Assembly (NCBI RefSeq): GCF_004054195.1 | Contig: NZ_SBIW01000031.1 | Span: forward strand, 1-64,000 | DNA from: Mucilaginibacter gilvus | Lineage (GTDB): Bacteria > Bacteroidota > Bacteroidia > Sphingobacteriales > Sphingobacteriaceae | Direction: 5' to 3' | DNA: 64,000 nucleotides | Shown here: positions 33,429 to 36,737 of the stretch, in pieces | Layout: the number at the start of each line of letters is the position of its first letter | Position numbering within the stretch: the first letter of the stretch is position 1 | Translations under genes and position numbers: made by a program | Notes under the pieces: model-generated | The model's input: only the letters and a program-made list of their open reading frames with translations | Databases searched by the model: none | Told to the model about the DNA's origin: nothing

Positions 33429-33793
33429 TGTAACAATCAGTGATAGGTGAAGCGCTCCGCCGCGCCCTTTTTACGCGACCCGGCGGGATAAATAGCCTAA
33501 AAAGCATTAAAGACTATTTACAGCGGGAATTTACCTGTTTTTTAAAAGAAAGCCAATTAAATTATCAACATCTGTAAAAATGACATGGTTTTTTGTGAGA
33601 AAAGCAGGGTTTGGTGCGTTATAGGCTGCGGCGCCCCCGCTGTACGCTCTACGTTGTGCCACTGCCATCGGGTTTAGGTGGGTTGGGTTACGTTATTTAT
33701 TTAGCTTCTCAACTATGTCATGCTGAATTTATTTCAGCATGACGTGAGAGAGCTTAAGCGGAATATCAATATCGCTTCTTCTATCGCGGGTCT
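33429..33793. other. 365-bp intergenic region with dispersed repeat
   Basis: This lies between the amine-oxidase gene start and the end of the DinB-like gene, so it should hold the promoter of the oxidase-aminotransferase group. No confident promoter box was seen. It includes a perfect hairpin element at 33717-33743 and a GC-rich stretch near 33625-33680 (TGCGGCGCCCCCGCTGTACG onward) that looks like another dispersed element rather than coding sequence. Confidence 0.45.
33717..33743. repeat. Palindromic dispersed repeat (GTCATGCTGAA hairpin)
   Basis: GTCATGCTGAA (33717-33727) and TTCAGCATGAC (33733-33743) form perfect 11-bp arms around a 5-base loop. The sequence matches the GTCATGCTGAA-type intergenic element common in Sphingobacteriaceae as I recall it. 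It may also act as a transcription end for the DinB-like gene (stop at 33794). Confidence 0.55.
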
Positions 33794-34267
33794 TTACACT
33801 AAAACCAACTGCCCGAAATGGTAAGCGATATGATTGGTACGGCTTAGTAATACGCTGAGACGGTTGCGGGTTGGGTCGTTCGCGAAATCTTCGTCGGTCA
33901 TGGCGTTGTGGCGTTTAAACCAGTCTTCGGCCGGCAGGGCATTAAACAGCTCGGTCAAGCGGTCGTGTACCTCATGCCAGTATTCCCTTAATTTTTCTAC
34001 GGGGTAGGCATTAACAAGCGGGCCATCGGGCGTGCGCAGAAATACCGGGGCAAGTTCGGGGTACATAGCCTGGCCTAAGCCGAGGGTTTCGCTTAACAGC
34101 CCGTGATAACTTGTTAAGTGCCCGTAAAGGTATATGATACGGTTTTTGCCGGGTGCTACCGTTTTCTGAAAGTCAGCTTCGCTAAGGGCGTTGAAATATT
34201 TTTCGGCGCGGGTTACCTGGGTGTTCCAGCCCTGCAGCGCCATCTTTACAAACAATTGATGATCCAT
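33794..34267 (-). CDS. DinB-like four-helix-bundle protein
   Basis: A 157-residue protein of the DinB/YfiT-like superfamily. Histidines expected for the metal site are in IYLYGHLTSYHGLLSE (~44-58) and in the C-terminal SRTNHIAYHFGQLVLV; a further conserved-looking stretch is LREYWHEVHDRLTELFNAL. Members are thiol-dependent transferases or of unknown function. The called start (ATG 34267) lies inside the 3' arm of a perfect hairpin, and an in-frame stop is 24 bp upstream. The next start, ATG 34243 (MALQGWNTQVTRAEKYF), would still retain most of helix 1, so the start is uncertain. Confidence 0.85.
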   Translation of the reverse strand: MDHQLFVKMALQGWNTQVTRAEKYFNALSEADFQKTVAPGKNRIIYLYGHLTSYHGLLSETLGLGQAMYPELAPVFLRTPDGPLVNAYPVEKLREYWHEVHDRLTELFNALPAEDWFKRHNAMTDEDFANDPTRNRLSVLLSRTNHIAYHFGQLVLV

Positions 34268-34297
34268 CTTTTTTTCGGTAAAGATGGATCATCAATT
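34254..34297 (-). promoter_or_regulatory. 18-bp perfect hairpin enclosing the DinB-like start codon
   Basis: Arms AATTGATGATCCATCTTT (34254-34271) and AAAGATGGATCATCAATT (34280-34297) are exactly complementary with an 8-base loop. In the minus-strand transcript the start codon at 34267-34265 lies in the 3' arm, so folding would hide it. There is no T-run after the stem in that direction, which argues against a simple terminator. Confidence 0.7.
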
Positions 34298-34349
34298 ATG
34301 TTTTTGGTAACATCCCGCCAAAATTGACGGGCGGTTGACGGTAGCCGGA

Positions 34350-36737
34350 TTATTTCACCTCAAAGGTAAACGACTGCGAAGCGGCGTCCCCATTGGCGGC
34401 CATCCCCTGCACTATGCCAAAGTATCTCCCGGCCTGGTCTGATGTGTAAAAGGTAACTTTATTGGCGCTGATAGGGCCTGTATTGATCTCGGGTGCCCAA
34501 AATAACAGGTTCCTAAAATCGGGTATGCGGCTTTTTGTCTGCTCATCGGTCTCGTAAATTGGCGAGTAAAACTCGCGCTGTACCTGCATCCCTTCATAAT
34601 CTATCACTACGGCATGCGGATCCATTTCGGCGCCGCCCAGGTCGCCTTTATAGGTGGTATAGTTCATAATACCCTCAAATGCAGCTGGTCCCCAGAAATA
34701 GCGGCTCCGCAGCACCTGCAACCTTTGCACTTTTAGCGGATCTATCGCCATTACTTTATCAATGTTAAATACCGGCACACCATCCAGCATTACCAATGGG
34801 TCGCCGGTAAGTATTGCCTTCTCGTCTATAAGGGTAATGTGGAACCGGCCACGAGACCTGGATACGCCAGCTTCGCGCACGTATTCGCGCACTACTTCTT
34901 CCATGGTAACAAAGCGGGTAAAATCATCCAGCTTATAGGTTTTGTAAGGAATGCCAAAAAAACCGGTGCTATCTACAACCGGCTCGAAGTAGTGTTTAAG
35001 CTTATTACCTGCGTAGATGTTTTGCACCTGCATGCCCAGGCTTTGCTGCTGTAAAGAGGTTTGCATCCCTGGGGTAAGCCCAAATGCAGGCAGCGTGGTT
35101 TTTGAATATTGCTCAGAGAAAGGGCTAATAACCTCTATCTTATGCGAAGTATCGCGCTCGGTATTGGTTTGCACCACAATTTCGCTGGGACCGTAAAACT
35201 CTTTGGTATTAAAATAAAGCTTGCCTTCGGCATCGCTTTTTGCTGCGTATACCTGCACACGCTTACCCGGCACAGCAAGGAAAGCGATCACATCCTTCGC
35301 GATATTTTTTACCGAGTCGGTAACCTTGCCAATAACCAGGTGCCCGTTAAACTCGGGCAGGTATTTAAAGGCTGCCGGGTTGGCCTGTAATATATTATCC
35401 CAGCGGAAACGTCTCCAACCCTGGGTTAATAACAGGTTATCGGTTGCCTCATCAATCTCAGCAGTGGTGTTTTTTAAGTAATATCCCGGCGATTCGATAC
35501 TGCCTTTAAGTTCGGCACCGAGCCAAAAGTAGCTCGCGATATCATCCTGATCTACCGTTTGCAAAGAATCTACCCGGTAAACCGACATGGATAAACCAGC
35601 GTTGATCATTTTATTGGCCGCGTTTTTTGCTGCCACGGTAACACTTACCTTTTTACGGGTTGCGTACTGCCCGGCATCGGCACCGGCATTAATAAACAAG
35701 GCTTGCTTTGGCCGTTTAAAGTACAACCGCTCGCAAACGGGCTGCTTGCCGCCATCAAATATGGTGAGGGAAGATACGCCTTCATCCAGCTTGTCTTTAC
35801 TTACCGTAAACTGCGCTGCGCCGTTGCTGCTAACAGCGCTCTGCACTAATTTAGCAACACCGCGAGTGTGTGCAAAAAGGTATAGCGGCTGGTCGCCGGT
35901 ATTGTTGTTCACCTTTACATTAAGGCTGCCGTTGCCGGCATCGGTTACCTGCATGGTGTAGCCATTATTTTCCACCACGGGCAGTGTTGTAACAATCGGT
36001 TTATCGCTGCCGATATTTATAACGGCCCTGTAAGTGCTATTTGCAGCAGGCGTAAATGCAAAACGCGCCATACCAAACTTTAATGGCTTAAAACGGGCAA
36101 CGGTATCGTTATTATCATTTACAACGGCACCCCTAAAGGTAACGCCCATGCCATTTTTTGCAACCGCTTTAAAGGCAACGTTTGCTGCCAGGCCGCTAAC
36201 CAGATACCCCCCCTCCGGGAAAAACTGCACATCATAATCTGGTGTTTTGGGTTTGGCCGCCAAATCGGGAGATCTTAACGAGTTTACAATGGTTATCTTT
36301 TTTTCGAAGAAACCCTCGGGACCAAAATTCTTCATCCAATTGGTGTATGCCCGTAATTTATAATTACCATTAGCCACAGATGGCGGTATCACCAGCGAGC
36401 CGCTGCCCATACCATCGGCCATGGCTATTTTAGCCTGCATAACGCTCACCTGCGCGTTATCTAAAATATCAACATAAACTACTTTACTTAGCGTGAGCGG
36501 TTTATTAAAGGCCCCGTCTACACAATAAATTTTAAACCAAACGATCTCGCCGGCCAGATAGGTGCTTTTATCGGTATGCACAAATATTTTTTCCTGCAGG
36601 GTGGACTGGGTGTACTTATTAAAAGCGGCTTGTACAGGCTGCAAATCCTGCGCGTTGCCGCGCGGGATAAAAGCAAGCAATATTACCGATACGAGTAAAG
36701 TATTTTTAAGCAGGTTTAATTTTCTTTTACCGTTCAT
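34350..36737 (-). CDS. Large exported MG2-like protein with TonB-receptor plug-like domain, no barrel
   Basis: A 795-residue secreted protein (signal ending FIPRGNAQ). The N-terminal part has the alpha-2-macroglobulin MG2-like motif EKIFVHTDKSTYLAGEIVWF (~49-68), then repeated sandwich domains (GNYKLRAYTNWM, VQFFPEGGYLVSGL). The C-terminal third contains a plug-like segment, DPLVMLDGVPVFNIDKVMAIDPLKVQ broken around GVP, then YFWGPAAFEGIMNYTTYKGD, as in TonB-dependent receptors, but no beta-barrel follows. This architecture recurs in Bacteroidota and is thought to work at the outer membrane. It closes the operon of receptor and DUF4249 lipoproteins, 36 bp after the full-length DUF4249 gene. 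The substrate is unknown. Confidence 0.8.
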   Translation of the reverse strand: MNGKRKLNLLKNTLLVSVILLAFIPRGNAQDLQPVQAAFNKYTQSTLQEKIFVHTDKSTYLAGEIVWFKIYCVDGAFNKPLTLSKVVYVDILDNAQVSVMQAKIAMADGMGSGSLVIPPSVANGNYKLRAYTNWMKNFGPEGFFEKKITIVNSLRSPDLAAKPKTPDYDVQFFPEGGYLVSGLAANVAFKAVAKNGMGVTFRGAVVNDNNDTVARFKPLKFGMARFAFTPAANSTYRAVINIGSDKPIVTTLPVVENNGYTMQVTDAGNGSLNVKVNNNTGDQPLYLFAHTRGVAKLVQSAVSSNGAAQFTVSKDKLDEGVSSLTIFDGGKQPVCERLYFKRPKQALFINAGADAGQYATRKKVSVTVAAKNAANKMINAGLSMSVYRVDSLQTVDQDDIASYFWLGAELKGSIESPGYYLKNTTAEIDEATDNLLLTQGWRRFRWDNILQANPAAFKYLPEFNGHLVIGKVTDSVKNIAKDVIAFLAVPGKRVQVYAAKSDAEGKLYFNTKEFYGPSEIVVQTNTERDTSHKIEVISPFSEQYSKTTLPAFGLTPGMQTSLQQQSLGMQVQNIYAGNKLKHYFEPVVDSTGFFGIPYKTYKLDDFTRFVTMEEVVREYVREAGVSRSRGRFHITLIDEKAILTGDPLVMLDGVPVFNIDKVMAIDPLKVQRLQVLRSRYFWGPAAFEGIMNYTTYKGDLGGAEMDPHAVVIDYEGMQVQREFYSPIYETDEQTKSRIPDFRNLLFWAPEINTGPISANKVTFYTSDQAGRYFGIVQGMAANGDAASQSFTFEVK

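Follow-up and report, generated by a model that had tools for sequence, protein, structure and literature searches.

The start codon of a dinB gene in Mucilaginibacter gilvus is buried in a perfect 18-bp hairpin whose 5' arm also holds a candidate promoter box, and we consider it fairly probable that this hairpin acts as fold-back insulation against read-through translation. The window analysed is a stretch of 64,000 nucleotides (contig NZ_SBIW01000031.1, positions 1 to 64,000), within which the relevant features, all on the - strand, are as follows.

34350..36737, - strand: upstream co-directional gene (ORF, 795 aa), the presumed source of read-through, ending 82 nt before the dinB ATG
34321..34339, - strand: 11-bp direct repeat GTCAACCGCCCGTCAATTT, a possible activator site, conserved upstream of orthologues
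34280..34297, - strand: 5' arm (anti-start arm in gene sense), AAAGATGGATCATCAATT, exact complement of 34254-34271, co-varying with the 3' arm in relatives
34279..34286, - strand: -7-like box CATCTTTA in the 5' arm, at a fixed 42-bp distance from the direct repeat, matching 4 of the 6 fixed positions of TAnnTTTG
34272..34279, - strand: loop of 8 bases between the perfect 18-bp arms
34254..34271, - strand: 3' arm, AATTGATGATCCATCTTT, spanning the start codon (34267-34265), the three codons after it and two bases of a fourth
33794..34267, - strand: DinB_2 family protein (ORF, 157 aa; PF12867 at 38 bits, cut-off 24.8)

The proposed mechanism would depend on where a transcript begins. The -7 box of dinB's own predicted promoter lies within the 5' arm, such that RNA from this promoter would begin in the loop and carry the 3' arm only; with the 5' arm missing the hairpin could not form, and the RNA would be translatable. 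Transcripts that continue past the end of the co-directional gene upstream would contain both arms and fold, hiding the AUG and the next codons, and dinB would go untranslated from that copy. Readable directly in the sequence are the pairing and its paired changes, the elements at fixed distance with the box in an arm, and the co-directional neighbour; we infer where the dinB transcript starts, that the upstream gene is read through into dinB, and that the stem prevents initiation in living cells. An earlier note on this DNA had pointed to a buried start and, as one option, a translational switch; the sequestration stands for RNA spanning both arms, while the switch reading passes over the conserved box in the 5' arm, because of which dinB's own mRNA probably lacks that arm.

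Exact comparison of the arms revealed perfect reverse complements, bearing out the description of an 18-bp hairpin with an 8-base loop and the dinB ATG inside; the 3' arm, said to hold the ATG and the next four codons, does include the ATG (34267), but only three of the four codons are whole, followed by two bases. The predicted fold of sense RNA over both arms contains 20 pairs, and each base of the AUG has a predicted chance of being unpaired of ≤0.001 in RNA spanning both arms, with a stem of -24 to -28 kcal/mol. A 111-nt stretch folds with a z of -5.6, none of 200 shuffles being equally stable, and for loops of 3-20 the window's longest perfect stem measures 18 bp, compared with 9-12 in 20 first-order Markov copies. 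Perfect stems of at least 13 bp number 34 in 720 kb of the M. gilvus genome, 29 of them outside predicted ORFs. Among 535 ORF starts sampled from the same 720 kb, a background of longest ORFs from this one genome, the dinB start region has the lowest z (-7.1). Chance was considered as the origin of the hairpin and is ruled out by the shuffles, the Markov copies and the rank among these starts. Of 3124 candidate ATGs in 1.52 Mb, 4 fall inside the 3' arm of perfect stems measuring at least 9 bp (mirror control, 3), the dinB stem being the longest of the four and one of the others (C29:98858-98891) probably preceding the real start, a later MKKLVF. No general class emerged in the M. gilvus genome, where 9 of 148 genes reached p≤0.05 in either direction against 7.4 expected. 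Rfam returned nothing at gathering score, only four microRNA-type matches with E up to 1, and the best match over the hairpin scored 29.3 bits against a cut-off of 90.

Turning to the gene and its surroundings, the DinB_2 protein is 92% identical to its counterpart in M. pankratovii, 86% in M. pedocola and 81% in M. psychrotolerans. The suggestion that the true start is the ATG at 34243 finds no support, as the residues before it are conserved, orthologues beginning with MDHQLFVK, MDQQLFVK, MEQQLFVT or MEPQLFVK. The 795-aa upstream protein scores 31.3 bits for MG2, just under the cut-off of 32.8. The distance from the end of the co-directional upstream gene to the ATG is 82 nt in M. gilvus, 85 nt in M. 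pankratovii and 58 nt in M. psychrotolerans, the last having a different gene upstream of dinB, and a consensus scan of M. gilvus found no terminator-like site on the gene's strand between the upstream gene and dinB. Loci with a divergent or distant neighbour (L008, L040, L046) are without the hairpin, with L043 at a z of -2.1, yet L033, L006, L042, L044 and L045 have a close co-directional neighbour and still no hairpin. Judged from these loci, the link between the hairpin and a close co-directional gene is permissive only at DinB.

Conservation of the hairpin was assessed in the upstream regions of 17 DinB loci, with L036, L010, L011, L047 and more distant homologues falling outside this set for want of the layout or of a clear start, and with same-species loci (L004/L033, L009/L035, L038/L037, L039/L034) counted once. 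The hairpin z is -6.7 in M. gilvus, -6.8 in M. pankratovii and -7.4 in M. psychrotolerans. Of 18 positions, the arms of M. pankratovii form 17 Watson-Crick pairs and one U-G, and those of M. psychrotolerans 16 Watson-Crick pairs and one U-G, with one C-U mismatch near the base. A hairpin remnant of 11 pairs out of 18 persists in G010. The paired changes in relatives that the earlier note had named as a check are present, two pairs having changed on both sides and one of the pairs occurring as A-U, C-G and U-A. Shuffle controls for the five sequences were moderate, the number of cells paired being matched in 6 of 500, the covariation score in 11 of 500 and the number of pairs changed on both sides in 49 of 500.

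A recent inverted duplication, also suggested earlier, does not fit a hairpin common to three species (M. gilvus, M. pankratovii and M. psychrotolerans). The protein tree places M. psychrotolerans as sister to the other four (support 92/90, under the tool's star), and the simplest history is therefore a single origin before the M. psychrotolerans split followed by decay in M. pedocola and G010. The note held that absence of the upstream arm in close relatives, with equal expression of the gene, would speak against its reading; it is the part concerning the arm that was found, in M. pedocola, where the upstream arm is degraded to 7 Watson-Crick pairs (+1) of 18 with a z of +1.6, the upstream neighbour and the direct repeat being kept but not the hairpin. 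Across the set, the start-region z is ≥-1.1 in 12 of the 17 orthologues and about -2.1 in G010 and L043. A swap test over 13 DinB orthologues (near copies L040, L044, L045 and L052 left out) was not significant (KS p 0.22), with only L003 and L037 ranking in the best tenth both ways.

Evidence for a promoter inside the 5' arm comes from the alignment of the 17 orthologues, which share GTCA-N7-GTMAATTT or close variants followed by CATCTTTA or a variant, with little conserved sequence between repeat and box. Thirteen of 21 loci have exactly 42 bp between the two, and two others have 43 and 41 bp, six being unmatched by the script. When eleven spacings were allowed, the 149 genomes contained 9 instances of the repeat-box pattern, each of them upstream of dinB and with one and the same spacing, while its reversed control gave five matches in five genomes. 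The 11-bp period of the repeat at 34321-34339 presumably recalls PhoB/OmpR-type sites, and a search of the M. gilvus genome for a regulon of the repeat gave one exact match only, that at dinB. TAnnTTTG stands upstream of genes 86 times (324 genes in 720 kb of M. gilvus) against 29 for the reversed and 40 for the reverse-complement motif, and is commonest ≤20 nt from the ATG. CAnnTTTA, the class to which the dinB box belongs, showed no enrichment ahead of genes (33, compared with 40 and 39 in the controls), and the weak match of the dinB box to TAnnTTTG is the main soft spot of the promoter reading.

mRNAs of Bacteroidota can begin a few bases ahead of the AUG, and to our knowledge these bacteria are without Shine-Dalgarno sites. 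The gap between box and ATG is 3 to 20 nt in the orthologues, and 3 or 4 nt in seven of them. In Flavobacterium johnsoniae, many promoters start the transcript 4-5 nt after the box (PMC6847099), so in those seven the transcript would be leaderless or would start within the ATG; leaderless mRNAs are a minority in flavobacteria, at 5.5% in F. psychrophilum (PMC9723704). From the box position and the same 4-5 nt spacing, dinB transcription is predicted to start at about 34274 or 34273, inside the loop, which would leave a leader of some 7 nt. Transcripts folded from the corresponding predicted starts are weakly structured in all 17 orthologues, at -1.0 to -6.1 kcal/mol.

A second gene of Mucilaginibacter, encoding an HD-domain hydrolase (PF01966), offers a comparison in more loci. 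It was found by the pattern CCATCTTT-N3-20-AAAGATGG, which matches in 23 of 149 genomes, and its start is enclosed in a stem of 15 bp whose arms flank the canonical box TATCTTTG. The loci considered (L172-L261) are the best 90 of 133 matches in the genus (the 30 best and the next 60); starts were found for 88 of the 90, L185 and L236 being dropped, and the upstream gene was read for 68. Canonical-box HD loci number 68, 12 of them without upstream sequence. Among the 88 starts from the best 90 of 133 matches, the mean z is -2.67, with 31 values below -3 and 20 of them also below -4, compared with 13 and 10 of 535 background starts in M. gilvus (mean -0.09), the HD genes coming from many genomes and the background from one. 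Stem sequences differ by group (TGTTCCATCTTTTGC in L172, CTGTTTCATCCGGG in L200, TAATGCCGGCGT in L219 and, in L229, a palindrome around ATATGAGCTATATTTGCG); in all four the box lies either between the two arms or inside the 5' arm, and the start region of L173 is identical to that of L172. In the first HD group, 3 of the 15 pairs vary, each on one side and all kept as sense G-U, such that 120 of 120 cells are paired; slid partners are 40-57% paired, and the shuffle control is uninformative since only one side changes.

Swapping of the segments that precede the predicted start between 41 HD clusters revealed a mean interaction energy of -10.3 kcal/mol for native pairs against -5.75 for swapped ones, a difference that may come in part from differing genome base composition. 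Native pairs rank high both against other upstreams and against other starts (KS p 2e-6 and 5e-8), and continue to do so without the discovery cluster (1e-6 and 2e-7). AUG occlusion exceeds 0.9 in 31 of 68 HD loci versus 13 of 173 M. gilvus genes; however, it fails to tell native pairs from swapped ones (KS p 0.43), given that the shared box is a pairing partner for many start regions, and the HD case consequently rests on interaction energy. In M. gilvus and its nearest relatives (L207, L202, L242, L243 and L247) the box pairs instead with codons that follow the AUG, and AUG occlusion is near zero.

The mean HD z is -3.47 in the 57 loci with a co-directional HTH gene upstream versus -0.35 in the 11 without, relatedness being uncorrected; among the latter, L231 and L237 owe a z of -3.7 to a stem in which the start takes no part. 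In 48 of the 55 canonical-box loci with an HTH gene, that gene ends ≤70 nt from the HD start, and hairpins occur mostly where it ends 30-70 nt upstream, with L182, L183, L184 and L186 (HTH gene 112-144 nt away) at z values of -0.7 to +1.0. The link between AUG occlusion and a close HTH gene is weak (p 0.057). As far as these sequences indicate, the HD pattern supports the insulator reading.

Other accounts of the dinB hairpin have to be weighed against read-through insulation. Template switching during replication might have written the reverse complement of the start region upstream and might keep correcting one arm to the other, which would make the hairpin a functionless mutational product; the process can make perfect stems and compensatory changes, as PMC8794818 describes for RNA hairpins, and both the patchy presence of the dinB hairpin and the differing HD stem sequences suit it. 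That source concerns a mutational process and not a regulatory function. The letters left unpaired in the main stems are nevertheless sense-RNA wobbles (U-G in M. pankratovii and M. psychrotolerans), as are the three varied pairs of the one HD group for which the shuffle control is uninformative, and at HD the hairpin accompanies the upstream gene, all of which leads us to consider this account unlikely. Template switching could still be the origin of the stem and selection the reason for keeping it. We hold it somewhat less likely again that the hairpin is a classic translational switch in dinB's own mRNA (a thermometer or the target of a small RNA or protein), transcribed from a promoter further upstream such as the 34321-34339 repeat. 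The second half of this repeat, CAATTTTG, itself resembles a TAnnTTTG variant, and an upstream promoter would leave the start masked in all three hairpin species. A conserved switch would however be absent from most orthologues, given their start-region z values; the constant 42-bp gap with little conserved inside it fits DNA-bound proteins better than an mRNA leader, and the stem energy is very stable for a switch.

An element acting at the DNA level and covering the -7 box and the start, either a cruciform or a palindrome that serves a dimeric repressor as operator, seems improbable to us, even if the palindrome overlaps the box and the usual upstream neighbour of the HD genes encodes an HTH regulator. 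The arms vary while their complementarity is kept, with sense wobbles, and no HTH gene adjoins dinB among the ORFs. At the HD genes an HTH operator was considered and is disfavoured, since the palindrome is not conserved alongside the DNA-binding region: all 17 HTH proteins listed share the stretch ISQNAYSKIELGYTKIT unchanged, though the HD palindromes differ. A strong stem 53 nt beyond the upstream ORF might also serve that gene for termination or RNA processing and merely overlap the dinB start, but we regard this as very improbable. The earlier argument that the hairpin is no terminator because no T-run follows holds on the gene's strand and does not extend to the + strand, where T5 follows and the scan classes the hairpin as terminator-like; moreover, L033 has the same upstream gene and no stem.

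Read-through insulation, the reading we favour, has known counterparts. In Bacillus subtilis sigG, a stem of at least 20 pairs, which RNA made from the sigG promoter itself is unable to form, is proposed to block read-through translation (PMC5942855). In T4 I-TevI, I-TevII, I-TevIII and segB and in Aeh1 mobE, a stable structure covers the start site in early or middle transcripts, and in the I-TevI group the late promoter is placed such that late RNA is without the upstream arm, according to a review (PMC2988022). Chromosomal dinB resembles sigG in lying behind another gene and in having a stem absent from the predicted own-promoter RNA, and differs from it in that sigG involves a Firmicute, a ribosome-binding site and sporulation sigma factors; at dinB the stem would cover the AUG and first codons, the -7-like box falls within the arm, and the predicted own leader is about 7 nt. 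The T4 I-TevI group differs in comprising phage genes that have a Shine-Dalgarno site and whose late promoter is timed. Compared with hairpins of the sigG and I-TevI kind, dinB has a stable stem over its start site by fold prediction, a co-directional upstream gene with no terminator between by consensus scan only, and, for its putative own promoter, a conserved -7-like box in the arm at fixed spacing with a weak consensus match. On this sequence evidence, the predicted anatomy of the dinB hairpin is the same as that of sigG and I-TevI. In the IS10 and IS50 transposase genes, too, it is RNA of external origin, and not the gene's own, that folds over the start of translation, these being mobile elements in which, unlike at dinB, the upstream arm comes from the element's end.

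The mechanism is known already and its place apparently new; among the papers listed from the open-licence literature no such hairpin appeared for Bacteroidota, which proves little. More tentatively, it is possible that in Bacteroidota the -7 promoter region doubles as an anti-start arm, and that such hairpins recur in fresh sequence versions at genes that have their own promoter and closely trail another gene, uncoupling translation of the second gene from transcription of the first as a fast-evolving form of operon insulation. Were the insulator reading true, two neighbouring genes would share RNA and only the first would be translated from the shared copy, through an element of about 45 bases that is invisible to operon prediction, and the RNA level of the second gene would be misleading without 5' ends. 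Read-through insulation was previously known from some phage genes and sigG (PMC2988022 and PMC5942855); here it would concern Bacteroidota, two unrelated genes and many sequence versions, and these versions at two genes make the origin, whether selection or template switching, testable.

Several other structures were observed. On the + strand of the window, 34254-34307 reads as a hairpin followed by T5 and is terminator-like, with no + strand gene of note leading in. At 33688-33771, 3' of dinB, an inverted repeat around TCATGCTGAATTTATTTCAGCATGA has a weak microRNA-type Rfam match and resembles a dispersed palindrome or terminator. Elsewhere in M. gilvus, another start region (C30:54613-55389, - strand) has a strong fold over its ATG (z -4.9) with TATCTTAC between the arms. 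Finally, an SDR-like gene (L109, in G107; 254-aa ORF) has a 9-bp stem formed by CCATCTTTG and CAAAGATGG, with the start ATG in the 3' arm.
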